From: a virus
Virus record (IMG/VR): IMGVR_UViG_3300023223_000437
Span: 1 to 32,161 of that record
Length of the DNA: 32,161 nt
Reading direction: 5' to 3' (one strand)
Shown here: positions 4,103 through 26,031 of the stretch, one piece after another
How positions within the stretch are numbered: position 1 is the stretch's first letter
Layout: each line of letters begins with the position of its first letter
Made by a program: the position numbers and the translations under genes
The notes under the pieces: model-generated
The model's database searches: none
Seen by the model: the letters and a program-made list of their open reading frames with translations, nothing else
What the model was told of the DNA's origin: nothing

Positions 4103-4285
4103 ATGGAATACTACAATGACCACGTCGAGGAGTTAATTGAAACCGCCACTTGTTTAGATTGTGGCCGGGAATGTAATATAATTTATGAAGACGAGGGGAT
4201 AGGACCAAATGAGTTTTGGGGAATTCCTGGGAATGATGTTCAAATATGTGCCAGTTCTGACTGTTGTGGGAGTGAAGTGGACTAA
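4103..4285 (+). CDS. Small Cys-rich protein, 60 aa
   Basis: ATG 4103 follows the previous stop by two bases, with GAGGG upstream. It contains CLDCGREC and a distal C-A-S-S-D-C-C, so zinc binding is likely. It is acidic, and is the last early gene before the noncoding repeat block. Confidence 0.6.
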   Translation: MEYYNDHVEELIETATCLDCGRECNIIYEDEGIGPNEFWGIPGNDVQICASSDCCGSEVD

Positions 4286-4293
4286 AACCAAAA

Positions 4294-4672
4294 TTGCCCA
4301 GTAATAATCAAGCTATTACGGGATAATTCTAAAATTGCCCAGTTTGAATTCCGGGTGGGCAAAAATCGGGCAGGAAATTAACCAGTCATAGCGCGGAAAT
4401 TCTCTCTATTACCCAGTTACCCACTACTATTAAAAACTAGGAGGGATAGAGAGAATATACTATATAGTATTGAAAAAGTACTGGGTAAGTGGGTAGCACA
4501 TATTTTATGGTATTTAATTTCGCTCTATTACGAGATAATTCGGCGTGAATTGTGAATTCATCCTTTGTTTTTGAGATTGGGGCAAAATCCGAAAATATCG
4601 AATCCTTTGCTCTATTACGAGCTAATTCTCCAATATCAGATTGGCTATTCACTACTGGGCAAAAGTGGGCAA
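4294..4672. repeat. Origin-like block: two interleaved repeat families
   Basis: Family A is a 17-base direct repeat CTATTACG(A/G)G(A/C)TAATTC at 4313-4329, 4525-4541 and 4612-4628. Family B is A(C/G)TGGG(T/C)AA in both orientations. Reverse copies (TTGCCCAGT, TTACCCAGT, TTACCCACT) are at 4294-4302, 4335-4343, 4409-4417 and 4417-4425. Forward copies are at 4480-4488, 4488-4496 (last base differs), 4654-4662 and 4664-4672, with a partial forward copy at 4354-4362. The arms 4410-4427 and 4478-4495 form an 18-bp inverted repeat matching at 16 positions. Between the two orientations sits the perfect palindrome ATACTATATAGTAT (4457-4470). Repeats of this kind next to an initiator/helicase gene are typical of replication origins. 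The functional reading is inference. Confidence 0.6.
4297..4322 (+). terminator. Hairpin at the end of the early block (possible terminator)
   Basis: CCC-A-GTAATA (4297-4306) pairs with TATTAC-GGG (4314-4322): a 9-bp stem with one bulged A and a 7-base loop. The following bases (ATAATTCTAAAATT) are AT-rich but not a clear T-run, so it may be a weak terminator or only part of the repeat block. Confidence 0.35.
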
Positions 4673-4683
4673 TCGTTGAATAA

Positions 4684-4744
4684 TTGACACTTACCTATTT
4701 ATTTTATTTAATTCCAATTAATTAAATAAATAGTTTACTGTCAA
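4684..4744. repeat. Long AT-rich inverted repeat with TTGACA ends
   Basis: The left arm starts TTGACACTTACCTATTTATT on the + strand. The right arm read on the - strand starts TTGACAGTAAACTATTTATT. The arms meet around 4713-4716, giving an imperfect hairpin or cruciform about 30 bp long. Each end is a -35-like TTGACA, so it could also hold two convergent weak promoters (for example -10 TTTAAT at 4707-4712 on the + strand). Confidence 0.55.
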
Positions 4745-4774
4745 TAACTCCAAAAAAATAATTCCATTTTGCTC

Positions 4775-4802
4775 TTGCTTTACCGCAAATTCTGACTATA
4801 AT
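4775..4802 (+). promoter_or_regulatory. Sigma70-type promoter of the primase-helicase gene
   Basis: -35 TTGCTT (4775-4780), a 16-base spacer and -10 TATAAT (4797-4802). A second TATAAT overlaps at 4802-4807. Transcription would begin near 4809-4814, so the mRNA would start almost directly with the leader hairpin. Confidence 0.65.
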
Positions 4803-4811
4803 ATAATCATT

Positions 4812-4892
4812 CTCAAAGTGTGTGAGGTCTGCTTCTCCGGTGTTTGGCTGGAGAGGCAGCACACTTGAGAGAAAAATACGAACACTTTTGAG
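4812..4892 (+). promoter_or_regulatory. Structured 5' leader with alternative pairings
   Basis: Structure 1: CTCAAAGTGTG (4812-4822) pairs with CACACTTGAG (4860-4869), and inside it CTGCTTCTCC (4829-4838) pairs with GGAGAGGCAG (4850-4859) around an 11-base loop. Structure 2: the same left arm can pair with ACACTTTTGAG (4882-4892), a near copy of the first right arm, which reaches the purine-rich ribosome site just before ATG 4901. The two foldings exclude each other, as in attenuators or translational switches. No known riboswitch class is recognised. Confidence 0.55.
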
Positions 4893-4900
4893 AGAGAATA

Positions 4901-7228
4901 ATGACAGATAAATCAGTTCCCTACCACACTTTTTCCTTAACCAATATCGAGCCTGGAGACATTGGCTCGATCCAAAATTCCACTAATCCCTACTCCTGGC
5001 CGGAGTTCTGCACCCAATATAAAGACACTGTTTCCGGCCAACCATCTACAATAAAAAAGCCCAATCTACTTGGCTTATGCGCTGCGACTTTCGATAACGA
5101 CCATAGATCCGGCACGAATTTCCGGCAAATTACTATTCTTTCCCTGGATTTTGACGAAATCCCGAAAGAGATTAATTTCCGGGAAGTCTTTTCAAATTCA
5201 GACTATAACTACCTTCTAATAGAATCCCCATCGTCTTCCTGGTCACACAGGAAATACCGGGTTTATGTGCCTTTCGAGCAACCAATAACCAACGGCAAGG
5301 CTTATTCTCAAAACTACCTGGATTCGGTGGCAGCAATCCATCCCCACTTACTAAAATTCGTGGACAGGCAGTGTAAAGACTGCGCCAGGTTCATGTATAT
5401 CCCTAACCAGTCCAAGCTTTCTACCTTAACTTATGAAACCACAAAAAAATGCCTGTCTGCTTCATTCATTGAAACCCCTATTCTACCCGACACTACCCAA
5501 ACTCCTCCTATTACACCACCAATATCTTGCACTACAGATATAAGGATAGGCCAGATATGGGCTCTCCCGACTTTCGATCTCACTCTAAACACAGCGCCGC
5601 CGGGAGTACCCAAGCGCCCCACATCCGATTCAGGGCATCATCTGGTTACCCCAGAAGGCATAAAGGACTTCAACCACCCTACAGCCCCTAATTCTTATGA
5701 GTTCACAACATGGCGGGAGCTTCATGCCTTATTCTCTGCAATCCACCGAGGCAAACTCCTACCATCGTCAGTCCATCCCTATTACCTACAGAAATGGCAC
5801 GAAGCCGGAGACCCTATTCTTACAGAGCAGCAAATAAACCCCACGAAAATCAAAATCGTGGAAGACGGCACACGAGGGAGATATTACGCTGTTCTCAAGG
5901 GAGAAGCCAATGGCTTACAACCATTAGACCCGGTAAAAAATGAATTCGGTGTGGTCCTGGCCAGAATAAAGAATCCCGGCATCCCTACCCTTGCAGAACG
6001 AGAAGACATAGAGTATTTTTCGTCCGAAAACAATTCCTGGAGCAAAATCCCGCCAGATAATATAAAGTCAAATATCCGGGCAGTCTGTCTAACCAAAAAA
6101 ATCATTCTTGGCTGGCCGGAACCTGGACTATATTATTCAGCCCAGGAAAACAAAATATGTGAAGCCCTACACGGAACCCGGACTTTTGCGCCAATCCACC
6201 ACCCCATTATAAGCACATATCTCCTCTCATTACCCCTAGACCATGAGTGGCTTCTCGATTACCTACACTATCTACCACAAGTCCAAGAGCATGCACTGCC
6301 CTGGATCCACATGTTTGGCCCTTCTCAAGCCGGGAAGACATTGTTTGCCCAACTCTGTGCATCACTATGGACGGAGCCGCCGGTAACGGGCCTATTTATG
6401 TCCAATTTTCAGTCAGGAATGGGCACTTCTCCCATTATCCTTATGGACGAAGAGATCCCATCGAGCCAAAACAAGGCCATATCTGTCCTAAATGCCTGTA
6501 AAATCTTGGTAACAGCAAAGGATAATGAAGCAAATAAGAAATTCGAGGTTCCTCTTACCGTTACAGGCTATCACCGCCTTTTCTCTACAGAAAACTCAGA
6601 CGATCCTGCTGCCCTCAACATCCCAGACTCTCTACACCTGGGCGCACTCGTTCGCCGTTGTTTGGTTGTCGGATTCGGGCAGGAGCAAAAAGACTGGCTC
6701 AACCAACAAACGGCAGAGGAAATAGGCTCTTGGCTCAAACATAAATTCGGAGAACATTTGGCATGGTTAAAGCAGCCGGAAACAAGACGCGCAAGGGATC
6801 CCCAGGGTTTAATAGCCGTCCAGCCTTATGAAAACCAGCATTTATCTGAAACAAATCCCACAGGAGAGCTTCCTAGAGGGGTTATGGAGACAGTAGTGGC
6901 TGTTTTGAATAGCCAAGACCCTGAAATGGGCTATTTTGGGGAAAATAGGGACGAATACTTCCTGAATCTGAATAGTGGGGCATTTCAAGACAAATTAATT
7001 GCTAGGAAAATCACGTTGAAATCAAAAAGTGCTAAGTATTTGAAGTCTATGATTATGAGATGCGTAAAAGGCTCTAAATACGAAAGGACAATGGTAGGAG
7101 GGGATAGACAAAGGGTTATTTCCCTGCCTTTTGGGGCATTAAGTGATTTAGCAGAAAATTTAGGGCTTGAATTAAAGCTTACAGAAAAGCTAAAACAAGA
7201 GGAAAAAGAAAAAATTAAAAATAAATAG
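4901..7228 (+). CDS. Primase-helicase fusion (AEP-like primase + SF3-like helicase)
   Basis: A 775-residue protein expected to prime and unwind DNA at the fork. The N-terminal third resembles phage primase-polymerase (AEP-type) domains: a LDFDE strand with D83 and D85, a basic strand K-Y-R-V (R120), and a C-x2-C-A-R segment (C158, C161, R163) before a FMYIPNQ strand. A Pro/Thr-rich linker follows (about 190-215). The C-terminal half has a Walker A GPSQAGKT (K479, T480), a Walker B IILMDEE (D516, E517) and later an Arg-rich LVRRC segment (possible Arg finger), fitting an SF3/D5-like helicase. It replaces the DnaB-type gp4 of T7. It follows an origin-like block, its own promoter and a structured leader. 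The first about 1,950 bases are C-rich and G-poor on the coding strand, the last about 350 G-rich. Subfamily assignment of the N-terminus is less sure than the helicase. Confidence 0.8.
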   Translation: MTDKSVPYHTFSLTNIEPGDIGSIQNSTNPYSWPEFCTQYKDTVSGQPSTIKKPNLLGLCAATFDNDHRSGTNFRQITILSLDFDEIPKEINFREVFSNSDYNYLLIESPSSSWSHRKYRVYVPFEQPITNGKAYSQNYLDSVAAIHPHLLKFVDRQCKDCARFMYIPNQSKLSTLTYETTKKCLSASFIETPILPDTTQTPPITPPISCTTDIRIGQIWALPTFDLTLNTAPPGVPKRPTSDSGHHLVTPEGIKDFNHPTAPNSYEFTTWRELHALFSAIHRGKLLPSSVHPYYLQKWHEAGDPILTEQQINPTKIKIVEDGTRGRYYAVLKGEANGLQPLDPVKNEFGVVLARIKNPGIPTLAEREDIEYFSSENNSWSKIPPDNIKSNIRAVCLTKKIILGWPEPGLYYSAQENKICEALHGTRTFAPIHHPIISTYLLSLPLDHEWLLDYLHYLPQVQEHALPWIHMFGPSQAGKTLFAQLCASLWTEPPVTGLFMSNFQSGMGTSPIILMDEEIPSSQNKAISVLNACKILVTAKDNEANKKFEVPLTVTGYHRLFSTENSDDPAALNIPDSLHLGALVRRCLVVGFGQEQKDWLNQQTAEEIGSWLKHKFGEHLAWLKQPETRRARDPQGLIAVQPYENQHLSETNPTGELPRGVMETVVAVLNSQDPEMGYFGENRDEYFLNLNSGAFQDKLIARKITLKSKSAKYLKSMIMRCVKGSKYERTMVGGDRQRVISLPFGALSDLAENLGLELKLTEKLKQEEKEKIKNK

Positions 7229-7237
7229 TTTTTGCTA

Positions 7238-7265
7238 TTGACATTTGACTGTTTACAGCTATAAT
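7238..7265 (+). promoter_or_regulatory. Strong sigma70-type promoter of the replication block
   Basis: -35 TTGACA (7238-7243), a 16-base spacer and -10 TATAAT (7260-7265): exact consensus boxes. It starts 10 bases after the primase-helicase stop and about 35 bases before the ATG at 7301, which has a TACGGAGG ribosome site. The -35 region (TTGACATTTGACTGTTTA) resembles the 1085 promoter palindrome but its right arm is degenerate (TGTTTA instead of TGTCAA). Confidence 0.85.
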
Positions 7266-8883: not shown

Positions 8884-9443
8884 ATCTTAAACCTGGACAT
8901 AAAGTAATGATAAAAACCTGGGAGGATATGGAGAAAGAGTTTGGTCTCCATAAATCTCATCACAAAACAATAGACACTGTTTTCTGGACTCACAAATTGG
9001 AAGAAGAGATTCCTGATAATAGAATAATTATTTTGGGCGAAGAGGGGACCGATTCTGCCGGAGATTTCTTTGGTTGGAAAATGTGGAACATTTACTCTGG
9101 AGCAATAGCGTCTGTATGTATAGAAGAGACGAGTAATAGTGCTAAATGGGCTCCTCCCGGCCAAGTAGAAACGGATGTCCAAGACGGGCTTATTGAATCT
9201 AAACTCCCCGAAGATGTAGAAAAGACTTATGAAGTAGAACACCACAGGGCAGAGGCTCTGGAAGCTATGGTAAACGGAAAAAACATAGAGATTGCCCGGC
9301 TTGAAAAAGAACTCAACAAGCGGGAGGATGTGGGTGGTACTACGGCTGATTTCTGCGAACTCCAATACAGGTGTAATAGATCCGAAGAGCGGTTGAGAAT
9401 TATTGAAGCTATTTTGAATCCAGATAGAGACGAATACGAATGA
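8880..9443 (+). CDS. Unknown protein, 187 aa, with SH3-like start and coiled coil
   Basis: Coupled by ATGA. It begins LKPGHKVMIKTWEDMEKEFG, a pattern found in small phage proteins with an SH3-like beta-barrel (G-x-K-V-x-I). The middle holds aromatic strands (FFGWKMWNIYSG). Residues about 115-150 are a coiled coil (EHHRAEALEAMV, IARLEKELNKRE), and a short helical tail follows. No catalytic motif. It ends by overlapping the nuclease gene. Confidence 0.6.
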   Translation: MNLKPGHKVMIKTWEDMEKEFGLHKSHHKTIDTVFWTHKLEEEIPDNRIIILGEEGTDSAGDFFGWKMWNIYSGAIASVCIEETSNSAKWAPPGQVETDVQDGLIESKLPEDVEKTYEVEHHRAEALEAMVNGKNIEIARLEKELNKREDVGGTTADFCELQYRCNRSEERLRIIEAILNPDRDEYE

Positions 9444-10816
9444 GAGTCTCTGTCTCACAAATAAAGAATTTCCGGCTTTGTCCAACAAAGTGGTATATCT
9501 CTTCTGTCCTTAAAATAAGAGAACCAGAAAAGCCTGCTACAGAACTTGGGAAAAAATTCCATGATGCGGCTGAAGCGTATTTGGCTGGAGAATACTTGGA
9601 AAATAAAGAGCCTAAAATACAGACTATGTTGGATAATGCAAAGCCTTTTCTTGACAGCTATTTAGGTGATGATTATACGTCCCTAGAAATAGAGAAAGAA
9701 ATAAGGGGAGAATTATGTGAAGGAATAGACTACTTGGGATATATAGATATTTGGAATCCAATAACAAAAGAAGTGACAGACTTGAAGACGGGTAATCCTG
9801 ACTATTTTCTTACAGAATACCAGCTACCTAATGATCTTCAACTAAACATATATGCACATGATAGATTCATGGCAGATGAAGAGTCTTTAGATCCTTCTGA
9901 ATACACCTTAACTCATATTCAATCCTCTTCAAAAACTCCACATAAATGCTCGAAGATTTCTGCGCCTGTGAGTAACTCTAAAATTCATAAAATATGGGCG
10001 GAAGCACAAGAAACTGCAAAAGACATGAAATCTGTAGTAGATAATGTTAAAGACTTGGATTGGGAAGTAATGGACAAGGCTTTGGCTAGGAATAAAGGGG
10101 CTTGTAATAAATACGGGGGATGTCCTTATAAGGAAATATGTTGGCAGGGGGTTGATCCTGAATACGTTAGAAAATCATTTACAGAGGAAAATAAGGAGAA
10201 AGAAATGTTACCAAAAAATCATCCATTTACGGAGGGAAATAGTGATATGGACAATAAAATGACTTTTAAGGAAAAAATTGCTGCGGCGAAAGCGGCGGGG
10301 GGCGCAACTGCGGAGATTGCTGATAGTGTCGCTTCGATAGCGGAGGATTTAGAGTCTGCTAAAGAAAAGATACTTGCTGACAAAGAATCTCCCTCGGAGC
10401 CTGTAAAGGAGAAACGAAAACCGGGTCGGCCTAAGAAAGAAAAGCCCGGACCAGGGGACATAATTCCTGCGGATAAACTACCGCCCCCTGAGTTGTTAGA
10501 GGTTGTTGAGCCTAGACTGACTACACAATTCTGCATCGGAGCAATTCCTTTCAAATCAGGAATCCAAGTCACTCCGTTTTCAGAAATACTTCAGCCTTTT
10601 GAAAAAGAAATGGCAGAAAAGTTTAAGCTAACTGACATCCGGCAGGATAAATTTAATGAACCTGTGAAAGCACTTTGTAATAGTAAGGCAAAGATACTGG
10701 AAAAATGTAAGGAATTTGAATATGTCTTTGTGGATGAAAGAGATCCTGTTCAAGACTTGGTTTTTAGGTGTGTGGATAATGGGGAGTTTATTGTTTGGCG
10801 GAGTATTGGAAGGTGA
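9440..10816 (+). CDS. PD-(D/E)XK nuclease, Cas4/RecB-like, fused to an AT-hook region
   Basis: A 458-residue predicted DNA exonuclease with an iron-sulfur cluster. Residues 1-240 show H41 (KKFHDAAEAY), D103 (GYIDIW), D114-L-K116 (TDLKTG) and a QLNIYA helix: the RecB-family active site. C14 near the N-terminus and C222, C228, C234 provide four Cys for a 4Fe-4S cluster as in Cas4/AddB. After residue 245 comes an Ala/Lys helix, then KRKPGRPKKEKPG with the AT-hook core G329-R330-P331, then a separate C-terminal domain (about 360-458) that I do not recognise. It probably replaces the T7 gp6 exonuclease in recombination. TACGGAGG at 10228-10235 before an in-frame ATG at 10247 could allow a shorter C-terminal product. 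Confidence 0.8.
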   Translation: MRVSVSQIKNFRLCPTKWYISSVLKIREPEKPATELGKKFHDAAEAYLAGEYLENKEPKIQTMLDNAKPFLDSYLGDDYTSLEIEKEIRGELCEGIDYLGYIDIWNPITKEVTDLKTGNPDYFLTEYQLPNDLQLNIYAHDRFMADEESLDPSEYTLTHIQSSSKTPHKCSKISAPVSNSKIHKIWAEAQETAKDMKSVVDNVKDLDWEVMDKALARNKGACNKYGGCPYKEICWQGVDPEYVRKSFTEENKEKEMLPKNHPFTEGNSDMDNKMTFKEKIAAAKAAGGATAEIADSVASIAEDLESAKEKILADKESPSEPVKEKRKPGRPKKEKPGPGDIIPADKLPPPELLEVVEPRLTTQFCIGAIPFKSGIQVTPFSEILQPFEKEMAEKFKLTDIRQDKFNEPVKALCNSKAKILEKCKEFEYVFVDERDPVQDLVFRCVDNGEFIVWRSIGR

Positions 10817-10953: not shown

Positions 10954-11248
10954 AGAAGAGTGGATAAATGAAATTCTGATTCCGTGGAAGCCGGGGGATG
11001 TTTTACAGTTCTTGGGCAGAGTACACCAAGAATGGCAAGATGTGGATATGCGGTATGTTACGGACCCTGCTCACTACATGTGGTGTGAGTCGGATACGTA
11101 CCGTATTAAACCCAAAATGATACAGTGGATTATTGAAACTCCGACAAATGTGAATCAGGCAACTTTTTATAATCTAGCCCAAAATACCGCAGTGGGGCGC
11201 TTTGGTTCTGATTTTTTGAGAGCAATAATGGATGCGAGAAGGTTATGA
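10946..11248 (+). CDS. Unknown protein, 100 aa
   Basis: I prefer ATG 10946 (GGTGG five bases upstream) to the in-frame GTG at 10937. The N-terminus reads MTREEWINEILIPWKPGDVL, an amphipathic start followed by aromatic strands (W/Y-rich, MWCESDTYRIKPK). It ends in a helical segment and overlaps the RuvC-like gene by ATGA. No family recognised. Confidence 0.6.
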   Translation: MTREEWINEILIPWKPGDVLQFLGRVHQEWQDVDMRYVTDPAHYMWCESDTYRIKPKMIQWIIETPTNVNQATFYNLAQNTAVGRFGSDFLRAIMDARRL

Positions 11249-11712
11249 AAACTAAACCTACAACTTTATTGGCTTTTGATCCTAGTTTACACGCAACCGG
11301 CTGGGCGAGTTTTCATAACGGAAATTACTACAAATCTGGGGTTATTAGAATACCAAAGACATTCAAGGGTGTGGATGCTGTGTTTATGATGTGGTCTCAG
11401 TGGCAATGCCAGGGGAGTGACGATAAAAGGCCAGAGGCTGTAGTCGGGGAGGTTCAAGAATACAGACACAAAAATGAAAGGGCATCTGTAAATAGCTTAC
11501 TGTTGTTAAACGGGGTTTGTTTTGGTTTCTTGGCTATGACAGAAGCGTTAATAAAAGTAGCCTATACCCCGCAACAATGGAAAGGAACCACACCCAAAAA
11601 AATCCATAATCAAAGAGTTAAAGATTACATAGGGGGACTCGATATAACAGACGATAACGAGCTTGATGCAATAGGTTTGGGACTTTATTATTTAGCCGGG
11701 AGGAAGTTATGA
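11245..11712 (+). CDS. RuvC-like Holliday junction resolvase
   Basis: A 155-residue RNase H-fold endonuclease expected to cut branched DNA before packaging, the role of endonuclease I (gp3) in T7. The catalytic acids are visible: D12 in LLAFDPSLHATGWA, E69 in VVGEVQEY, and the C-terminal E139/D141 in a D-D-N-E-L-D-A-I-G-L-G helix. The length and the order of acidic residues fit phage and bacterial RuvC. It sits between the RecB-like nuclease and the SNF2 helicase, a coherent recombination module. Confidence 0.85.
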   Translation: MKTKPTTLLAFDPSLHATGWASFHNGNYYKSGVIRIPKTFKGVDAVFMMWSQWQCQGSDDKRPEAVVGEVQEYRHKNERASVNSLLLLNGVCFGFLAMTEALIKVAYTPQQWKGTTPKKIHNQRVKDYIGGLDITDDNELDAIGLGLYYLAGRKL

Positions 11713-12737: not shown

Positions 12738-12905
12738 ATGAAAGTCATAGTAAAGAAGGAAGTGCCTTATGTCAATGTCGTTTTTAATTTGGGGCACACT
12801 ACAGTTGCTTTAGGCTTATTGGGTGTGGAGGAGCAAACTGAGCTTATTGGTGTTTTGGAAGAAGCGGTACATTATTTGAGAGAATATAGGGGAGATGTGC
12901 CATAA
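12738..12905 (+). CDS. Unknown small protein, 55 aa
   Basis: ATG 12738 follows the previous stop by four bases, with GGGGTGGGG upstream, and the stop overlaps the helicase start (TAATG). The open frame extends upstream through the previous gene but that part is a shadow. The protein has one strand (VIVKKEVPYVNVVFNLG) and one acidic helix. Function unknown. Confidence 0.55.
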   Translation: MKVIVKKEVPYVNVVFNLGHTTVALGLLGVEEQTELIGVLEEAVHYLREYRGDVP

Positions 12906-14758
12906 TGCACCCAGTATTCAAAAGACTAAGAGAAAGAGTTCAAATCCTAGAAACAGATATGGACAGAATCCTTTCTCTTCCTATCCGCCAGTCTTGGCCA
13001 GAAGAAGACAGGAACGCAATCCGCACTATATTCTCCTCTAATAAACTCAAGTTAAGAGACATCCAGGCAGATGCGCTACTAGAATTAGCTCATGTAGGAT
13101 CTCTTTTTGGAATAGTTGGAGTAGGTTGGGGGAAAACCATTATTTCATTACTCGCAGGAGTGGTTACTGATTCAAAAAAGACTTTATTAATAGTCCCTCC
13201 AGAAGTCTGTTATCAATTAACTGAAAGGGATATTCCACAAATTCAACAAGAATACAATATGGAGTTTAATTATGTTTGTTTCAAAGGAAGAAATAAAGAA
13301 GACAGGGCTATACAAGCTAATAAAACTTATTCTCTGTATATTCTGCCTTATAGTCTGTTGTCTCAGCCTGATGCCTATAATCTTCTTGAGTCTATTATGC
13401 CGGACTTATGTGTCCTTGATGAAGCGCACAGGGTCAAAAGAAGAGAATCTGCCCGGTCCAAAAGACTCTTTAACTACTTAAACAAAATAAATACAGACTG
13501 CAAATTAGTTGCCCTTTCCGGCACTATAACCCGCACATCTCTTTTCGATTACTGGCACATTATAAAAAGATGTCTAGGTAATAACTCCCCTCTACCCAAC
13601 CTATACTCTACTATTAAAGAGTGGAATGACTTTATAGGGGTATCCCAGGGAGATACACGGGGAGAAGACATTACTAAATCCCAAATGGCTTCTATAAAGC
13701 CTGTAATGGATTGGGTAAACGATAATTCTCTTAATGGCCACTTATACAATTCACAAAGGGACCAAGCCAGAAGCACTTTTGCATTAAGATTAAAAACTGC
13801 GCCAGGAGTAGTACAGACAGAATACCAGAGTATAGACAGTTCACTGTTAATTGACAATTCTGATATAAAAATCCCGGAAAAAATTTTAGCGGAATTAGAG
13901 ATATTGGATTCTCTGTGGGTAGATCCCAATGGAGACACTATTACAGAGGTTATACAGTATGTTGCGACTGCTTCTCAAATTTCAAGTGGATTTTATTACC
14001 AGTTAAAATGGCCGGATGGTGTGGAAGACTGGGTGCTTGACCAACAACAATTAAAGTGTGAGTTGGATAAAGAATTGAGAAAGTTTATAAATTCTGGAGT
14101 GAGACGAGGGTATGATACACCTATGCTTGTGTATAAAGGTCTTAAAAACCGCGATAAAGAAGTAAAGGTTTTGCAGGAAATGTATGACGGATGGCTTAGC
14201 CTTGTAAATGGTAGGGTTATTCCTGATAGGAATAGTAGTGTGGTTTGGTTGGATGATTATAAAATCAGAAAAGCAATGGCTTGGGCCATGTTGGTAGTTA
14301 ATATCAGCTCAAGTGGGAGTATCATTTGGTATAATTTCAAAGCAGTGGGAGAAATGTTAGCGAAAAGAATGCCGGGAGCACTATTCTGTCCTGCTGGATG
14401 CGATTACGACACCATGCTAGACCCGAATAAAATTATAATAGCATCTATCCCCGCCCACAGCACAGGAAAAAATCTCCAGCATTTTTCCAATCAATTAATT
14501 GTAGATCCTCCCAGGGGAGGGGCTGTTTGGGAACAAATGTTAGGTCGGACTCATAGGCAGGGGCAGAAAGAAGACGAAGTCCACGCAAAAGTCTTGGCAT
14601 CTACAGAGTTTGAGAAAGCAAAGATTTGGGAAGCGTGGCACGATTGTGAATATGTACAGTTGACGGGAGGTGGCCGACAGAAAATGCTCATGGCAGACTG
14701 GGCCTTGCCTCCTACAGAGAAGCACTATAAGGTGTACGATAAATCTAATCCACTTTAA
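12905..14758 (+). CDS. SNF2/SF2-type DNA helicase
   Basis: A 617-residue ATP-dependent DNA translocase. In order: a Q-motif-like LRDIQADALLELAH, Walker A GVGWGKT (K77), motif II LDEAH (D172-H175), motif III LSGT, and at the C-terminus the SNF2/SF2 signature MLGRTHRQGQ (R548, R551) of motif VI. The spacing between the two RecA-like halves is long, with a low-similarity insertion in the middle. It probably remodels forks or drives recombination together with the nearby nuclease and resolvase. The coding strand is C-rich over the first half and G-rich around 13900-14350, a change inside one gene. Confidence 0.85.
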   Translation: MHPVFKRLRERVQILETDMDRILSLPIRQSWPEEDRNAIRTIFSSNKLKLRDIQADALLELAHVGSLFGIVGVGWGKTIISLLAGVVTDSKKTLLIVPPEVCYQLTERDIPQIQQEYNMEFNYVCFKGRNKEDRAIQANKTYSLYILPYSLLSQPDAYNLLESIMPDLCVLDEAHRVKRRESARSKRLFNYLNKINTDCKLVALSGTITRTSLFDYWHIIKRCLGNNSPLPNLYSTIKEWNDFIGVSQGDTRGEDITKSQMASIKPVMDWVNDNSLNGHLYNSQRDQARSTFALRLKTAPGVVQTEYQSIDSSLLIDNSDIKIPEKILAELEILDSLWVDPNGDTITEVIQYVATASQISSGFYYQLKWPDGVEDWVLDQQQLKCELDKELRKFINSGVRRGYDTPMLVYKGLKNRDKEVKVLQEMYDGWLSLVNGRVIPDRNSSVVWLDDYKIRKAMAWAMLVVNISSSGSIIWYNFKAVGEMLAKRMPGALFCPAGCDYDTMLDPNKIIIASIPAHSTGKNLQHFSNQLIVDPPRGGAVWEQMLGRTHRQGQKEDEVHAKVLASTEFEKAKIWEAWHDCEYVQLTGGGRQKMLMADWALPPTEKHYKVYDKSNPL

Positions 14759-15266: not shown

Positions 15267-17165
15267 ATGAACATAGGATTTGACACAGAAACATATTTAA
15301 TAGGGCCGAGACAACAGGCCCCTAAGTTAGTTTGTAGTACCATGCACAATGGAGAAACTGGTGATTTATACGATAGGGAGTTTAGTCTTAAAACCCCACA
15401 AGACAGCAGTGAAAATAAATCTATCTTTATTCTCTGTAATGCAGCTTATGATATGTCCGTACTTTGTGCTAACAATCAAGACTTATTTCCGTTTGTGTTT
15501 AGTCTGTATAAAAGGAAGAAAGTTAAAGACATTCAAATAAATGAAAAGCTGCATATTCTTAAAGATTCTGGAAAAATAGAAGGAGAAAAATACCATCTCG
15601 CTAACCTTGTTAAGAAACACTTGGGTATAGACATTTCCCAGGATAAAAACGACCCCAACTCCTGGCGGTTGCGTTATTCAGAACTTGACGGCATTCCAAT
15701 AGAAGACTGGCCACAGGAGGCAAAAGATTATGCACTACAGGATGCGGAACTCACATTAAAAGTATGGGAAGCACAAGAAAAAGTCTACGGTCCAGCACTT
15801 AATGACTTAGATAGCCAGTGCTTTGCAGATTTCTGCCTACGCCTTATGGCAGTCTGCGGAATACATGTAGACCCTGTTGCAGCCAAAAAACTCAAAGAAA
15901 AATCCCAGGCAGCAGTAGATTCTCAAATGGAATACCTTATAGAGAACGGCATCTATAGTTATAAAGGAAAAGCTAATCCGAAATTGACTCAATCGCGCAA
16001 AGCAGTGCAGGCCAGGGTAGTAGATGTTTGTGACAAACTAAATTCCCCTGTATCAAAGACAGATAAAGGATCAGTTTCTACAGACAAAAATGTTATGGAG
16101 GAGATTTATGGTAATGATCCTGTCTTGGATGCGCTTGCAGATATAAGTGTAGACAAAGGAATACTTGAAAAGTATGTTCCTGTTCTTACTAATAGTTTCC
16201 ACATAGTCCACCCTAATTATGATGTCTTGAAAAAGACTGGCCGGACTTCTAGTTATGGAATGAGTAAGAAAGAAGCTAAAGAGGGGGAAAGGTATAGTCT
16301 AAACATCCAACAACTTGCGCGGGAGGGTGGTGTAAGGGAGTGTTTTGTACCTAGACCTGGATTTATTTTCCTGGCCATAGACTATAGTTACATAGAGTTA
16401 TGTGCTTTGGCTTATGTATGCCAACAGAAATTGGGGCTCCGGCAGGATGAGTTACATTTATTTAACTCCATTGTTGAGGGAAAAGATCCTCATTTGGTAA
16501 CTGCCGGGAATATATTACACCGGGAGTACGAAGATTTGTTGGCTAATAAGAAAGATCCTGAAGTTAAAGAGGCTAGACAGTTAAGTAAGGCTGCAAACTT
16601 CGGATACCCCGGAGGCTTGGGGCCAGCTACCTTTAGAGCTTATGCCAAAGGAACTTACGGTTTGGTTATTTCAGAAGCGGAAGCAAAGAATTTAAGGAAT
16701 ACATGGTTTAAGACTTACCCTGAGATGAGAAAGTATTTTGATTTTATTGCGAGTCTGGAAGACACTGCTTTGGGGGGGTTCCAGGTAGAACAGTTGGGGA
16801 CAGATAGAGTAAGAGCCCAGGCATCTTTTACAAGTGCGTGTAATGCTTGGTTTCAGGGACTTGTTGCAGATGGGGCTAAGAAAGCTATTTGTGCTGTGTC
16901 TGAGTTTTGCTATGCGTCTATGGATCAAGAATTTAGTGTTGCTCCGGTAGCCTTTATCCATGATGAGATTATTTTCGAGGTAGAAGAGGAGGATCACAGC
17001 TATGATAGAACGGCATTGGCGTTGAGTGGCATAATGATAAAAGCCATGTCTGAATTCATGCCAGGAATTCCAGTCAAGACAGAGTGCTCTCTTATGAGAA
17101 GGTGGTATAAAAATGCCGGGCCTGTTTATGATGAGCAAGGACAACTAATTATTTGGGAGCCGTAA
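15267..17165 (+). CDS. Family A DNA polymerase with 3'-5' exonuclease
   Basis: A 632-residue replicative polymerase. Exonuclease motifs are complete: D6-T-E8, N58-x3-D62 and Y155-x3-D159. Polymerase motif A is DYSYIEL (D372, E377), motif B R437-x3-K441 with KAANFGYPGG, and motif C HDE (H565, D566, E567). The residue equivalent to E. coli Phe762 is Phe (F445), and the O-helix Tyr766 position is Gly (G449) in a YPGG motif. Motif A ends ELC instead of the usual ELR. It is shorter than T7 gp5 (704) because no thioredoxin-binding insertion is evident. It lies after the SSB-like gene with a strong TACGGAGG site. Confidence 0.95.
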   Translation: MNIGFDTETYLIGPRQQAPKLVCSTMHNGETGDLYDREFSLKTPQDSSENKSIFILCNAAYDMSVLCANNQDLFPFVFSLYKRKKVKDIQINEKLHILKDSGKIEGEKYHLANLVKKHLGIDISQDKNDPNSWRLRYSELDGIPIEDWPQEAKDYALQDAELTLKVWEAQEKVYGPALNDLDSQCFADFCLRLMAVCGIHVDPVAAKKLKEKSQAAVDSQMEYLIENGIYSYKGKANPKLTQSRKAVQARVVDVCDKLNSPVSKTDKGSVSTDKNVMEEIYGNDPVLDALADISVDKGILEKYVPVLTNSFHIVHPNYDVLKKTGRTSSYGMSKKEAKEGERYSLNIQQLAREGGVRECFVPRPGFIFLAIDYSYIELCALAYVCQQKLGLRQDELHLFNSIVEGKDPHLVTAGNILHREYEDLLANKKDPEVKEARQLSKAANFGYPGGLGPATFRAYAKGTYGLVISEAEAKNLRNTWFKTYPEMRKYFDFIASLEDTALGGFQVEQLGTDRVRAQASFTSACNAWFQGLVADGAKKAICAVSEFCYASMDQEFSVAPVAFIHDEIIFEVEEEDHSYDRTALALSGIMIKAMSEFMPGIPVKTECSLMRRWYKNAGPVYDEQGQLIIWEP

Positions 17166-17561: not shown

Positions 17562-17890
17562 TGCCTAGAGATCCTTTAGACCAGAGCATTATTAAAATGC
17601 GAGCATATTCAACTCCGTGGTGGGGTGGTGTTGACTTGCTGATAAGTAGTGGAGAGGCTTATTGTCAAAAAATAGAATTTGAAGAGTATCGAGACAAGGG
17701 AAAACGTCTGGAACCTTCGTTATCTATTTGCACACAGGACGCACAGATCCTGATGGATGATTTGTGGGCTTGCGGCATGAGATCTACAGAAGGAAAAGGT
17801 AGTGCTGGATCTTTGAAGGCTACTGAGAATCGCTTGGGTGATATGAGAAAAATTGTTTTCAAACAACTTAAAATGGATATAAGTAGATGA
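17561..17890 (+). CDS. Unknown protein, 109 aa
   Basis: ATG 17561 at the TGATG overlap is chosen over a start at 17528 that would run into the previous gene. The protein has an aromatic N-terminus (STPWWGGVDLL), an acidic middle and a Lys-rich C-terminal helix that ends in an ATGA overlap with the HAD gene. The C-terminal part (SICTQDAQILMDDLWACGMR, then E-x-R-L-x-D-M-R) resembles a small conserved phage domain of unknown function. Confidence 0.6.
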   Translation: MPRDPLDQSIIKMRAYSTPWWGGVDLLISSGEAYCQKIEFEEYRDKGKRLEPSLSICTQDAQILMDDLWACGMRSTEGKGSAGSLKATENRLGDMRKIVFKQLKMDISR

Positions 17891-18288
17891 TTATAGCTGT
17901 TGATTTTGATGGTACTTGTGTTGAACATCGGTTTCCAGAAGTCGGACCAGATGCCCCCCACTCAGTTGAAGTCTTAAAAGAAATGTGTTACGATCACGAT
18001 TTAATTTTGTATACTATGAGAAGTCGTGGATATTTACAGGACGCAACGGATTGGTTCAAAAAACACAAAATTAGGCTGGCCGGAATACAATACTCACCAG
18101 GACAGACAGATTGGACTAGCTCTAACAAATGTTATGCCAATTTGTATATTGATGATGCTGCTTTGGGGGCCCCACTACTTTATTACACTGACGGCAGAGC
18201 CCCAGTCATTAATTGGCTACAAGTTAGGGGCATGTTGGCGACTATTGTTTTGGCTAATACTGACATAATTTTATCTCACGATGAATAA
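17887..18288 (+). CDS. HAD-family phosphatase
   Basis: A 133-residue HAD-fold hydrolase. Motif I is DFDGT with nucleophile D6 and acid/base D8, motif II a T/S in LILYTMRSR, motif III K81 and motif IV DD (D89, D90). There is no large cap domain. Small phage HAD proteins of this type act on nucleotide or DNA 3'-phosphate substrates, but the substrate here cannot be told. It starts by ATGA overlap and ends overlapping the next gene. Confidence 0.8.
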   Translation: MIIAVDFDGTCVEHRFPEVGPDAPHSVEVLKEMCYDHDLILYTMRSRGYLQDATDWFKKHKIRLAGIQYSPGQTDWTSSNKCYANLYIDDAALGAPLLYYTDGRAPVINWLQVRGMLATIVLANTDIILSHDE

Positions 18289-21017: not shown

Positions 21018-23495
21018 ATGGCAAAGAAACGTAACGTAAGAAAGAAAGTCTCACATCCCAGGAAAATTATAAACCCAGATGCAGCCAGAGAAGTCCTGGA
21101 TTTCTCACAACTAGATTCCCTACAAGGCTTAGCCAAAGACCAACTCAAACTAGAAATAGACGGTATCGAAAGAGGTATTGCCAAGTACCAACAGATAATA
21201 GACACAACAGACACAGGAGATACCCCTGCCGGGGAAAAGATTATCAGAAATATCATAGCCCCTCTAGCTTCCGGCCTGGCTTCTATTCAGGCGGGAGACG
21301 TTCGCAAGCATAGTCTCGATCTGCTGCCCTACATAGCCATATTAGATCCAGACAGAATAGCCTACATAACCACAAAAGTAGTTATTGATGTCCTGTCTGA
21401 AAAGGAGGACAACGGTTTGGGCTTCATAGGCTTATCTCTCTCCATAGGCAACTCTATTTATGACGATAGGATGTTGACTCTGGCCAAGAAATATCACATG
21501 TCAGACGTAGAGCAATTAAGAAAGCTGTGGTCAACAGAAACCAGAACTTTCTCCAAGAAAATTTACAAGTCTGTGGATATTGTAGATCCCGAACTTGACT
21601 GGGAAGATGGGATGGCACATAAACTGGGGAAGTTTCTGCTTAAATCCATGTTGAATTATACCGGGGCGGTGGAAATTTATATGGAACCAATGGCAGGTAG
21701 GAAATCCCGCTTTCAAAAAGTATATCTACATGAAGATACTGTAAAAGCCCTGGAGAATTACCACCACAATAATGAACTACTGCGGCCAGAGTTTATGCCT
21801 ATGGTTATTCCGCCTATACCCTGGCAAGATCAGACAGACGGCGGGTATACTGTACTTCAGAAGCCGTTAATAAATTATAGACATTTACGAGGCAGACCAA
21901 TAGACGCTGCGCCGGAGATGCCTGAAGTATTCAAGGCAGTTAATAGAATACAGGCTGTCCCCTGGAAAATAAACGAAAGAGTCTACGGAATAGCCCAGAG
22001 ATTATATCAGGATGAAGGAACTATACCTGGAATGGATATAACCACAAAGCCCATTCCCCCACTCCTTTCCGATACAGACAAGGAAGATCCAGAACTTATG
22101 AAAGAGTGGAAAGCCATAGCCCATGACATACATACTCATAACAGGCAAGCCCGGTCCAGGAGATTCTCCTTATACTCAAACCTACAATTAGCCGGGAGAT
22201 TTATAAACTCAGCGGAGATATATTTCCCATACCATTTAGATTGGCGGGGGAGAGTGTATCCCATACCCGGCTGGCTACATCCACAAGGAAATGATTTGGC
22301 TAGGGGGCTGTTGCAATTCGCGGAAGGTAAAGCTCTCGAAGAATCCGGCACACTTGCCATAGCAGTACATGTTGCAAATCTTTTTGGCCAGAGCCTACTA
22401 TCGGAAGACAAGAGGCTGGACTGGATTGCAAAGAATTGGAATAAGCTTTTACAGTCGGCGCAAGAGCCCACCAACGAGCCGAGATTCTGGACTACAGCCG
22501 AAAAACCCTTTACAGCACTGGCCGCAATCTTTGAATTGATTGAGGCAAACGAAGAACCAGACTACATTTCATACGTTCCAGTCAGTGTTGACGGTACTTG
22601 TAACGGCCTTCAGTGGATCTCTGCACTGGCTTTAGATCCTGTCGGAGCCAAGAATGTGAACCTGGGTCCCGCAAACTCGCCCGCAGATGCCTACACGGAA
22701 GTGGGAAAAATTGTCATAAAAAAGGTCCTGGAAGCTGTAGAAAACAAGGATGAAAACGCTCCAATATGGGCAGAAATCCTGCAAACAAAGGGGAATCACA
22801 GGAAATTATTCAAAACTCCAGCCATGACCTACGGCTACGGGGTGACTCAATACGGAGTTGCCCGGCAGATCCAGGAAGCAGGCTATTTTGACATTTTACC
22901 GTTAAATGTCAACAGGTTTTCGCGCATTTTTTGGCTCGCTGAAATAGTTTTGGCGAGCATCGAAGAGGTAGTTCCGTCTGCAAAATCGGTTATGACCTTC
23001 CTCCAGCACATGATTTTTCCCCTTGTAGACACCAATAAAGACTTGGTTTGGACATCTCCCAGCGGATTCAAAGTCTATCATTCCTACGCTAAATACTCCA
23101 GGGAAACCATGCGAACGGTGGTGGGAGACATCTCTCTAAAGAAAGGATTCGAGGCAAAGATAGATAAAACCAAGCAAATAAAAGGAATTGCCCCCAATTT
23201 CATTCACTCCCTGGACGCAGCACATTTAATTTCTGTCATAAATTCCTGTGAAAACTTCGCAATTTCCCCTACTCACGACAGTTTTGCCTACCATGCCTGC
23301 AATATAGAGGCCGCGCAGGATTGTATCAGGAGGACATTTGTTAAAATGAATGTAGAAAAAGGCAATATACTAGAGGATTTCAGGGAACAGGTGCTTGAGC
23401 AGAACAGGGATTTATGTACATTATTTCCAGAAGTTCCTGACCGTGGAGACTTTGATATTACAAAAACTCTCAATTCCCGCTACTTTTTTAATTAG
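21018..23495 (+). CDS. Single-subunit DNA-dependent RNA polymerase (T7-type)
   Basis: An 825-residue polymerase (T7 gp1 has 883) that transcribes phage late genes from its own promoters. Motif A is VDGTCNGLQ (D525), motif B R595-x3-K599-x3-M603-x3-Y607-G608 and motif C HDS with D754, all aligning in order with D537, R627/K631/Y639 and D812 of T7. The DWRGRVYP segment near 400-410 is the conserved DxRGR region. It sits at the end of the replication block, directly upstream of the virion genes, as in phiKMV-like phages and unlike T7, where gene 1 is early. Start ATG 21018 has an AGGTAAG site. Confidence 0.95.
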   Translation: MAKKRNVRKKVSHPRKIINPDAAREVLDFSQLDSLQGLAKDQLKLEIDGIERGIAKYQQIIDTTDTGDTPAGEKIIRNIIAPLASGLASIQAGDVRKHSLDLLPYIAILDPDRIAYITTKVVIDVLSEKEDNGLGFIGLSLSIGNSIYDDRMLTLAKKYHMSDVEQLRKLWSTETRTFSKKIYKSVDIVDPELDWEDGMAHKLGKFLLKSMLNYTGAVEIYMEPMAGRKSRFQKVYLHEDTVKALENYHHNNELLRPEFMPMVIPPIPWQDQTDGGYTVLQKPLINYRHLRGRPIDAAPEMPEVFKAVNRIQAVPWKINERVYGIAQRLYQDEGTIPGMDITTKPIPPLLSDTDKEDPELMKEWKAIAHDIHTHNRQARSRRFSLYSNLQLAGRFINSAEIYFPYHLDWRGRVYPIPGWLHPQGNDLARGLLQFAEGKALEESGTLAIAVHVANLFGQSLLSEDKRLDWIAKNWNKLLQSAQEPTNEPRFWTTAEKPFTALAAIFELIEANEEPDYISYVPVSVDGTCNGLQWISALALDPVGAKNVNLGPANSPADAYTEVGKIVIKKVLEAVENKDENAPIWAEILQTKGNHRKLFKTPAMTYGYGVTQYGVARQIQEAGYFDILPLNVNRFSRIFWLAEIVLASIEEVVPSAKSVMTFLQHMIFPLVDTNKDLVWTSPSGFKVYHSYAKYSRETMRTVVGDISLKKGFEAKIDKTKQIKGIAPNFIHSLDAAHLISVINSCENFAISPTHDSFAYHACNIEAAQDCIRRTFVKMNVEKGNILEDFREQVLEQNRDLCTLFPEVPDRGDFDITKTLNSRYFFN

Positions 23496-24147: not shown

Positions 24148-24403
24148 TCCAGCCGCAGCGGCCTTTTTTACTGTGGCAGGGACAGCAGTTGCATCTCAGA
24201 TTGCAAAACCAAAACGGCCCCCGCCCACAATACAGATACCTGAGCCAGCGGCTAAAGGTGAAACGGCTGTCCGGGCAGAAGAATCCGCCAGGAGTAGGCT
24301 TTTATCTGAACAGGAAGCTGGCCGGACCCGTAGACGGAGACTGCGTTTGCGTGGAGCTACACAAGAGCCCGCTGAAATTGGGTTGAAAATTCCGATTATC
24401 TAA
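24128..24403 (+). CDS. gp7.3-like small virion / tail assembly protein
   Basis: A 91-residue protein. It starts MLNPVCNPAAAAFFTVAG and ends with a basic Arg-rich tract (GRTRRRRLRLRG) and a hydrophobic KIPII end. T7-like phages have a protein of this length and composition (gp7.3: Ala/Lys-rich, Arg-rich C-terminus) directly before the portal gene. It overlaps both neighbours (20 bases upstream, one base with the portal). Assignment by position and composition. Confidence 0.6.
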   Translation: MLNPVCNPAAAAFFTVAGTAVASQIAKPKRPPPTIQIPEPAAKGETAVRAEESARSRLLSEQEAGRTRRRRLRLRGATQEPAEIGLKIPII

Positions 24404-26031
24404 TGGCGAGTTTTTCTACACAAGCTGCCAAAGGATCCGCCGGAAAATCGGGGCAAACTACCGTAAAAGGTAGATATGATGCACTGACAAGCGTAAGGTC
24501 TGGGGTGCTCGAACGAGCAAGAACGGCTGCGGAAATAACAATTCCGGGATTATTGCCCAGAGCAGGCTCTACAGAAACAAACGATTTACCTATTCCCAAT
24601 CAAAGCATGGGGGCCAGGTCTGTGACGAATCTCAGCTCCCGCTTGATGATTGCTTTGTTTCCACCCAATAGATCCTTTTTCCGTTTTCGTCTGCCTAAAG
24701 AATTACAGGAAGAGTTTGAAGAGTCTGGCGAGTTTGAGGAGTCTCAAATTGAAAACGCATTGGCCGAAAACGAGCAAATTGTTACAGATAAATTTGAGTC
24801 CACGGCTTCCCGGCAACAGGTTTTTATAGCCATCCAGCACTTAATTGTGGCTGGAAATTACATGCTTAAAGTGGAGGAAGACAACTCTCTGCGGGGATTC
24901 CGGCTGGATCAATTCGTTGTTTCCAGGGATGCCAGGGGAAATGTAAAGGAAATTGTAACACAGGAAAACGTGGCCTGGGAGACTTTAGATAAAAGAATCC
25001 GCAGAAAAGTAGCCAAACCTGACATTTCCGTTTCCCAGGAAGTCCCTGCGAATACTGCCGACAGTAATAAAGTGGGCGGAAATGATATAGATGTCTACAC
25101 CCAAATAAAATTCGATCCCAGCAAAAGAAAGAAAAAGAGATGGGTTGTGAAGCAGGAAATTGACGGGAAAATTGTACAGACAGGCAGCTTTGAAGTCAAT
25201 CCGTTTCTACCTATACGGTGGTTTGCTGTGTCTGGGGAGAATTATGGCCGCAGCCATGTAGAGGAAAACATTGGAGATTTAGCTGCTCTGGACGGACTAT
25301 CAAAATCTATTCTGGATGCAGCCGTGGCTTCTGCCCGGATTCTTTTGCTGCGTAATCCCGCCGGGCTGACAAAAGAGGAGGATTTAGCCAGGGGCGAAAA
25401 CGGAGATATTATTAATGGGCGTGAGGATGATGTCGCTTTCCTCCAGGTGGGGAAATTTGCAGACATGCAAGTAGCCGCGCAAGAGGCTGGGGTTTTAAGG
25501 GATGGAATTGGCTTTGCATTCCTTTTGAATACCAGCCTTCAGCGAGACGGGGAAAGAGTTACCGCCACAGAGATTAGAACTCTGGCTCAAGAGCTGGAAG
25601 GCACTTTGGGGGGAGTTTTCTCTCACCTTGCCAACGAATTGCAGCGCCCGTATCTCCGGCGCATGATTACCCAGCTCCAGAAAAACGGGGAATTGGCTGT
25701 ATTTGATGAGACGGATGTTAAATTTGAAATTCTCACCGGGCTTGAGGCTCTGGGCAGGGAAGCGGATCTGGTCAACATTCAGACGCTTACTCAATTACTA
25801 CAGGCACTGCCGGAATCAGCACAAGATACAGTTAAATGGAATCAGATTGTAAAAAAGATAGTGATAGCACTGAATCTCGATCTTGAAAGTGCAGTAAAAT
25901 CGAATGATGAATTAGAGGCAGAACAAGCCACTGAATTCCAACAACAAATAGCTGTGGCCGGAGCGCAATCCGCAGCAGAATCTGGGGGCCAAGTGGCTGG
26001 CCAGAATATAGCGCAAGCAGCAACAGGTTAA
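24403..26031 (+). CDS. Portal (head-tail connector) protein, T7 gp8-like
   Basis: A 542-residue protein; T7 gp8 is 536. The dodecameric portal forms the DNA gate and joins head to tail. Family features: N-terminal R-x3-LERARTAAEITIPGLLP, then LSSRLMIALFPPN-x-SFFRF, an HLIVAGNYMLKV strand-helix, and the ENIGDLAALDGLSKSILDAA helix typical of podovirus connectors. A further conserved segment is R-D-G-E-R-V-T-A-T-E-I. The C-terminus is Gln/Ala-rich. It starts at the stop of the gp7.3-like gene and precedes the scaffold gene, the standard podovirus order. Confidence 0.95.
   Translation: MASFSTQAAKGSAGKSGQTTVKGRYDALTSVRSGVLERARTAAEITIPGLLPRAGSTETNDLPIPNQSMGARSVTNLSSRLMIALFPPNRSFFRFRLPKELQEEFEESGEFEESQIENALAENEQIVTDKFESTASRQQVFIAIQHLIVAGNYMLKVEEDNSLRGFRLDQFVVSRDARGNVKEIVTQENVAWETLDKRIRRKVAKPDISVSQEVPANTADSNKVGGNDIDVYTQIKFDPSKRKKKRWVVKQEIDGKIVQTGSFEVNPFLPIRWFAVSGENYGRSHVEENIGDLAALDGLSKSILDAAVASARILLLRNPAGLTKEEDLARGENGDIINGREDDVAFLQVGKFADMQVAAQEAGVLRDGIGFAFLLNTSLQRDGERVTATEIRTLAQELEGTLGGVFSHLANELQRPYLRRMITQLQKNGELAVFDETDVKFEILTGLEALGREADLVNIQTLTQLLQALPESAQDTVKWNQIVKKIVIALNLDLESAVKSNDELEAEQATEFQQQIAVAGAQSAAESGGQVAGQNIAQAATG

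Follow-up and report, generated by a model that had tools for sequence, protein, structure and literature searches.

How does a T7-like phage start replication if the T7 primase-helicase is missing? The primary origin of T7 lies in AT-rich DNA in the left part of the phage and uses RNA-polymerase promoters and gp4. The DNA analysed here (the window) comes as a linear record of 32,161 bases from the virus collection IMG/VR; a comparison of its first 25,000 bases with 50,697 phage records gave nothing close. Its genes include one for a T7-type single-subunit RNA polymerase at 21018-23495, which is 32.5% identical to that of Pasto, the phage listed first, and others for a portal protein (24403-26031) and a head-assembly protein. 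Like T7, the window has AT-rich DNA in its left part; unlike in T7, a scan with the 17-base repeat described below showed no recurring promoters of the T7 kind, and a search of this linear fragment for a gp4-type primase-helicase returned 0 matches. The replication module comprises the following genes.

4901-7228, plus strand: 775-aa AEP primase/SF3 (DUF5906-like) helicase with a possible C-terminal winged helix; presumed initiator
9440-10816: PD-(D/E)XK exonuclease
11245-11712: RuvC-like resolvase
12905-14758: SNF2/DEAD-type helicase
15267-17165: family A DNA polymerase

The primase-helicase gene, whose kind would not be expected in a T7-like phage, is preceded by a block of repeats that an earlier note, made from the sequence alone, had proposed as a replication origin. 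We consider it probable (roughly 70%) that block 4285-4770 is an iteron-based origin of the self-loading initiator type. The proposal has gained support from the repeat arrays of two relatives (G063 and G060) but does not extend to the family uniformly, as eight of ten relatives lack this core.

Opposed iterons in a gene-free block

The earlier note described interval 4294-4672 as a gene-free block with four repeats pointing one way left of 4450 and four pointing the other way right of it. The repeats are arranged as described. ASTGGGYA occurs nine times in the window, eight times inside 4290-4680: four minus-strand copies lie left of 4450 (4295, 4336, 4410, 4418) and four plus-strand copies right of it (4480, 4488, 4654, 4664). 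The single exception to this polarity that had been flagged is also present, a plus-strand GTGGGCAA at 4355, and there is besides a weaker minus-strand site, ACTGGTTAA, at 4378. The block contains no credible gene; among ORFs of at least 60 aa, just one, of 71 aa on the minus strand, lies inside, and the surrounding gene-free stretch measures 600 bases. The feature itself is confirmed and reaches further right, to about 4900.

4295-4302, minus strand: iteron 1, ACTGGGCA (motif match)
4313-4329, plus strand: 17-mer copy 1, CTATTACGGGATAATTC (exact repeat)
4336-4343, minus strand: iteron 2, ACTGGGCA (motif match)
4355-4362, plus strand: exceptional iteron-like site of wrong polarity (motif scan)
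4378-4386, minus strand: weak iteron (motif scan)
4410-4425, minus strand: inner left tandem iteron pair, 8 bp apart (motif match)
4457-4470: AT palindrome ATACTATATAGTAT between the inner iteron pairs, the longest perfect palindrome in the window
4480-4495, plus strand: inner right tandem iteron pair, 8 bp apart (motif match)
4525-4541, plus strand: 17-mer copy 2, CTATTACGAGATAATTC (exact repeat)
4612-4628, plus strand: 17-mer copy 3, CTATTACGAGCTAATTC (exact repeat)
4654-4671, plus strand: outer right tandem iteron pair, 10 bp apart (motif match)
4696-4761: candidate DNA unwinding element, the least stable 66 bp of the window
4779-4807, plus strand: sigma-70-like promoter TTTACC-17-TATAAT before the primase-helicase gene (consensus match only)
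4812-4898, plus strand: 5' leader with a strong predicted RNA hairpin (4812-4905 folded, -34 kcal/mol, z -4.9)

Clustering is the strong part of the repeat evidence. All seven window copies of ASTGGGYAA lie inside the block, and 2,000 dinucleotide shuffles of the block yielded a mean of 0.0095 copies and a maximum of one. Because ASTGGGYA and ASTGGGYAA were defined on the block itself, tests free of a motif weigh more, and these are milder: the observed count of the commonest 7-mer, 9-mer, 6-mer and 8-mer was reached in 12, 25, 47 and 112 of 1000 shuffles, respectively. In a repeat-cluster scan of 400-bp tiles the block ranks first in the window (9.11 vs 6.93 for the next tile), and none of 302 overlapping 700-bp windows elsewhere in it scores as high as the 700 bp that precede the gene.

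Polarity by itself is weak, modestly improbable evidence. For the stated direction, P is 0.035 with 8 sites and none wrong, and 0.09 with 10 sites and one wrong; when either direction counts, the values are 0.063 and 0.16. The array spans about 380 bp, with distances of 8, 8 and 10 bp between tandem iterons. Both inner tandem pairs, which lie on opposite strands, have the 8-bp spacing, and this is all the symmetry present; their common centre at 4452.5 adds no independent symmetry because it is defined by those pairs.

The perfect palindrome that the note placed between the opposed sets is there, but the least stable DNA is found elsewhere, right of the block at 4696-4761. Since about two perfect 14-bp palindromes are expected in the window (uniform-composition estimate), ATACTATATAGTAT is not improbable by chance and constitutes weak evidence. 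The three 17-base repeats that the note had listed hold up: CTATTACGRGMTAATTC occurs in three exact copies, at 4313, 4525 and 4612, all on the plus strand. With up to three mismatches it matches five places in the window vs 0.40 expected; the two extra places have exactly three mismatches, and no further copy with one or two exists in the window. Two IMG/VR contigs that match the 17-mer were judged to do so by chance (one short locus was examined whole, the other in part).

The least stable 40 bp of the window starts at 4697, and in a 100-bp stability scan the segment at 4696 ranks second in the window, after 1046. An imperfect AT-rich palindrome at 4678-4750 (31-nt arms, 81%) overlaps this element 5' of the primase-helicase gene. 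TTGACA stands at both of its ends, pointing inward (4684-4744), and the melting element may have a double role as overlapping promoters. The centre between the iteron sets is AT-rich (74% A+T), yet the least stable segment of the window lies outside both sets, which counts against an origin; so does the fact that AT-rich DNA before a gene is also typical of promoter regions. Within 4250-4900, the DnaA box TTATCCACA is absent at up to one mismatch, and the looser box TTATNCACA occurs once with one mismatch, at 4739. The hairpin of the leader is possibly an mRNA stabiliser or regulator; Rfam gave no match at gathering scores.

GC skew, which the note had offered as a check, provides no local origin signal. 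We rejected it because the negative stretch coincides with one gene, 4901-7228, whose skew of -0.133 is the lowest of 23 genes (mean 0.147 for the 22 others). We do not argue for a foreign composition of this gene, as the four-fold sites of the RNA polymerase gene are C-rich to a similar degree. Elsewhere in the window, TTGACA-N6-TGTCAA palindromes at 694-711 and 1085-1102 form -35 boxes on both strands and may be divergent promoters sharing an operator; consensus sigma-70 promoters are located at 1085-1112 and 7238-7265.

The primase-helicase and its relatives

The earlier note had assigned the gene directly after the block to an SF3 primase-helicase. The encoded protein (P0001) scores 22.7 bits against DUF5906, under the cut-off of 27.6, and its primase matches are weak. 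The assignment is borne out by an alignment of P0001 with eight homologues of 16-20% identity, in which the AEP DxD pair, Walker A, Walker B and the motif C asparagine are in register in all nine proteins, and by DUF5906 in L007, a contig with a related polymerase. Its 877-aa protein is encoded directly before an exonuclease, an SNF2-type helicase and the polymerase, scores above the DUF5906 cut-off (34.8 bits, 3e-8) and gives E 0.019 in a direct BLASTP comparison with P0001; no repeat block precedes the gene.

A model of full-length P0001 was not usable (pLDDT 33). Residues 630-775, modelled alone, adopt a winged-helix-like fold (pLDDT 60, pTM 0.52). Among solved structures this model comes closest to the TcpK-oriT winged helix (Z 6.9), followed by SaPIbov1 Rep 453-561 (Z 6.0) and an ORC subunit (Z 5.9). 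Because all Z scores are below 8, the predicted winged-helix fold class is plausible rather than proven. The P4 alpha domain is not among the best 50 folds listed per structure search, which excludes nothing.

Relatives of the protein are distant. Single-protein pattern scans found none, and tblastn against the 50,697 phage records was negative at 1e-5; relaxing E to 10 brought up 19 records that match over 72 to 137 residues, in the primase region only. Plasmids yielded three matches with E 4 to 7. An alignment of the polymerase identified 80 loci, 50 of which were used in further searches, and P0001 matched in 10 of these 50 related-polymerase contigs (E up to 1e-3). Eight of the matches fall in the helicase region; the other two (G093, G094) are weak and confined to the primase region.

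For the upstream regions we took all ten loci, none of them a close relative, with the start of the longest ORF as the gene start, which may be off. Nine of the ten, all but L207, resemble the window in having the least stable 66 bp of their locus at most 900 bp upstream of the gene. This segment is free of ORFs of at least 100 aa in seven of the nine and covered in L212 and L213. Repeat clustering in the 700 bp upstream exceeds the pooled 95th percentile (from 963 overlapping windows) in five of eleven loci (the window, L205, L206, L209 and L211) and stays below it in six. The upstream score is reached by three windows elsewhere in each of L205, L206 and L209 and by none in L211 or the window under study.

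The motif comparison in related phages that the note had called for succeeded in part. G063 (L206) and G060 (L211) carry similar arrays before the homologous gene, with 11 and 7 STGRGNMA sites upstream, respectively, vs 3 in the rest of each locus, whereas none of the other eight relatives has more than one copy there; two of these eight, G058 and G097, have another strong repeat cluster upstream. The core in both arrays is STGAGACA/STGAGCAA, and the DNA at the array middle is devoid of ORFs of at least 100 aa. In G063, five minus-strand sites are followed by six plus-strand sites with one exception among the 11 (P 0.055); it is between these two groups that the least stable segment begins. 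The seven sites of G060, with one exception, are nearly one-sided (P 0.34). Same-strand neighbours of the loose core STGRG at most 15 bp apart are spaced 8, 8 and 10 bp in the window, 8 or 10 bp without exception in G063 (8 intervals) and 7, 8, 8, 10 and 12 bp in G060.

The G063 and G060 proteins are 69% identical, so we count the two arrays as one line of evidence; each is 19% identical to the protein of the window. In short-word BLAST comparisons the two upstream blocks share little beyond the repeats, and no significant stretch is common to the window and either of them. The core STGRGNMA was picked after all three arrays had been viewed and may be convergent. Judged from these upstream regions, the letters of the iterons are not conserved across the family of primase-helicase relatives. 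In both G060 and G063 the array is separated from the primase-helicase gene by an XRE-type HTH_3 gene, which overlaps the called start in G060. Six of the ten relatives have such a repressor gene; none was found in the window.

In the best-scoring relative, G099 (L204, E 2e-21), the 121 bp directly before the called primase-helicase start form a perfect inverted repeat, whose 47-bp arms lie at -121 and -45 and enclose a 29-base loop. Because G099 combines this long inverted repeat with an absence of such iterons, these phages may differ in origin type, or a single kind of origin may include both iterons and a stem-loop; the imperfect AT-rich palindrome of the window could be the counterpart of the G099 repeat. 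About 178-127 bp upstream, G099 also has three direct repeats around CCYTACNGGNATAGA. One holds TTACGGGATA, which is identical to the core of the first 17-mer of the window, and the other two match the 17-mer core poorly. We rejected the 17-mer as a conserved element, its exact core being found upstream in G099 only. Another relative, L210, has 17 GCCAGGTC-like sites, many 18 bp apart, in the 700 bp downstream of its primase-helicase gene; they are either a coding repeat or a downstream array.

Distribution of the module

To place the absence of gp4, we compared 40 records, of which 31 were positive: 30 of 34 IMG/VR contigs with a T7-type RNA polymerase (the longer contigs picked from 80 such loci) and MW202733, a portal match. 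Two of the four contigs that lack a gp4 match carry DnaB-type helicases, and none of the four contains a relative of the primase-helicase. Searches with DUF5906 and with P0001 gave 0 matches in 50 contigs with a T7-type RNA polymerase; the power of DUF5906 is limited here, P0001 itself scoring below the cut-off. Conversely, T7 RNA polymerase was found in 0 of the same 50 related-polymerase contigs searched with P0001, and this query does match in MW202733. As 10 of those 50 carry a relative of P0001 and T7 RNA polymerase was found in none, the module belongs, in these samples, to non-T7 phages, and the window is a mosaic. Contigs are often fragments, which makes such absences soft.

MW202816 is the best named phage by polymerase and the only named one by SNF2 helicase. 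We rejected it as the source of a relative: its Prim-Pol helicase has, by our reading, a different, RecA-like helicase part, and the match to P0001 reaches 11.7 bits only and contains stops.

Proposed initiation and its alternatives

If the block is an origin, initiation could proceed as follows. Subunits of the 4901-7228 protein would bind the iterons via the C-terminal winged helix, and the opposed iteron sets would nucleate two helicase rings facing opposite ways. AT-rich DNA at 4696-4761, or the AT-rich centre at 4426-4479, would melt, and the AEP domain would lay the first primers for the family A polymerase of the phage. The module, shared with non-T7 phages, would replace gp4 of T7 and presumably its RNA-polymerase-primed origin.

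We propose more tentatively, at somewhat less than even odds, that a T7-like phage swapped its whole initiation system for a cassette from a large, uncharacterised group of non-T7 phages. This cassette would comprise opposed iterons with an 8/10-bp grammar, a melting element and an AEP-SF3-winged-helix protein, would take the place of RNA-polymerase priming and gp4, and would represent a class of origin in which the letters diverge while spacing and polarity are kept. As two related non-T7 phages, G060 and G063, have a comparable arrangement, the phage may have borrowed a foreign replication system. Among the open-licence matches listed, by their titles and opening abstracts, we found no paper on a T7-like phage with an AEP-SF3 initiator and an iteron origin. 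Such mixtures are not unheard of, since four metagenomic genomes among the relatives of a PrimPol-bearing roseophage group encode RNA polymerase, according to the accessible text of PMC10149686. If the proposal holds, a T7-like phage can keep its T7-type transcription and capsid genes and yet start replication on an entirely different principle, and the uncharacterised phage AEP-SF3 primase-helicases gain a testable origin consisting of iterons, a spacing rule and a melting element.

Several known systems share parts of this layout. The primase of the phage P4 alpha protein is of the Toprim type, whereas that of the window is of the AEP type. The likeness lies in the union of priming, unwinding and winged-helix binding of origin repeats in a single protein (PMC4234260, as far as its accessible text goes). 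pRN1 ORF904 and NrS-1 polymerase join an AEP primase to a helicase (accessible parts of PMC4234260 and PMC8718748), and ORF904 also has an SF3 helicase and a C-terminal winged helix (PMC4234260). The origin proposed for pRN1 differs in being a large stem-loop 3' of the gene and free of iterons (PMC4234260); the same authors propose a large stem-loop origin 3' of the gene for phage BIP-1. A large inverted repeat is nevertheless shared, as G099 has one upstream of the gene and the window an imperfect AT-rich one at 4678-4750, and that of G099 recalls the pRN1 stem-loop by analogy.

SaPI and PICI elements resemble the window in having a helicase-initiator with a C-terminal origin-binding domain and short iterons beside the gene (available text of PMC6092414 and PMC7581432). 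The C-terminal domains of SaPI Rep and SCCmec Cch2 bind short origin repeats (PMC7581432), and the C-terminal model of the window protein aligns to SaPIbov1 Rep. As outlined in the same sources, PICI origins consist of two iteron sets flanking an AT-rich region (PMC6092414, PMC7581432); in the window two sets flank the AT-rich centre, but the least stable segment lies outside both, and in G063 that segment starts between the sets. The SaPI/PICI origin is placed just 3' of rep, whereas the block is 5' of the gene, and those elements are satellites, in contrast to the T7-like phage studied here, which encodes DNA and RNA polymerases of its own. Cch2, a D5-type helicase, uses its C-terminal domain to bind a putative origin that contains short direct AAGTG repeats; it differs in that its primase is a separate protein pair, and the accessible text mentions three iterons only and does not describe opposed sets (PMC7581432).

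A control function for the repeats has to be weighed against an origin. The primase-helicase itself or a small repressor might bind them as operators of the 4779-4807 promoter while replication starts elsewhere. The block is indeed upstream of this promoter-like site (the nearest iteron is about 110 bp off) and of a strong leader hairpin, and the HTH_3 gene between the array and the primase-helicase gene of G060 and G063 speaks for this account. The window, in contrast to six of the ten relatives, has no match to the HTH_3 family, to which the search was directed; an array of about 380 bp is long for an operator; and opposed iteron sets with adjoining least stable DNA resemble published origins. 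We therefore regard operators without an origin as unlikely. The two functions are not exclusive, because initiators often also autoregulate.

Other explanations assign the repeats different parts in replication or none. ASTGGGYA might be the template recognition site of the AEP primase, with copies facing one another such that priming would send the leading strands across the centre from both sides, a layout likened to the opposed priming (ssi) sites of RSF1010, and the 17-mers might be the true helicase binding sites. PrimPols read GTG (ORF904) or GTGG and TTTGGTTA (NrSPol), according to the accessible text of PMC8718748, and three of the eight iterons hold GTGGG; the 17-mers resemble classical direct repeats, and one of the three direct repeats of G099 contains TTACGGGATA exactly. 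Tandem pairing at 8/10 bp suggests, however, that an oligomer binds duplex DNA, the sites of G060 and G063 are nearly all STGAGACA or STGAGCMA without GTGG (1 of 18, GTGGGACA, has it), and the poor match of two of the three G099 repeats speaks against the 17-mers; we consider this account distinctly improbable. That the 17-mers are promoters of the phage RNA polymerase, which would prime the leading strand as in a T7-type origin, is in keeping with the polymerase gene at 21018-23495 and with three same-strand 17-bp repeats adjoining AT-rich DNA. It is very improbable given that promoters of this kind would be expected at structural genes, where no 17-mer with one or two mismatches occurs, and that the iterons are left unexplained. 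Inverted and direct repeats in a gene-free block can also mark packaging, recombination or attachment sites, to which we give almost no credence here: the block is internal to the record, adjoins the primase-helicase gene and has a counterpart at that gene in G060 and G063.

Further repeats and genes were observed outside the candidate origin. In MW202816 (L004), the top repeat cluster of this 48.5-kb phage lies at 47692-47977 (GGGTACTA, TACCC/GGGTA), in a gene-poor block before the phage's own Prim-Pol helicase gene. L112 contains, at 4835-4973 (about 24.8 kb in G002), seven ATAAATGC-like sites, partly palindromic and mostly between ORFs, about 12 kb from the primase-helicase of that phage. 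The window itself encodes a phosphoheptose-isomerase-like protein at 17887-18288 (phrog_1238, E 3.5e-23), and the 645-aa ORF after its head-assembly gene has a 218-nt internal duplication (27380-27597 and 27755-27972) with 79% identity between the copies.
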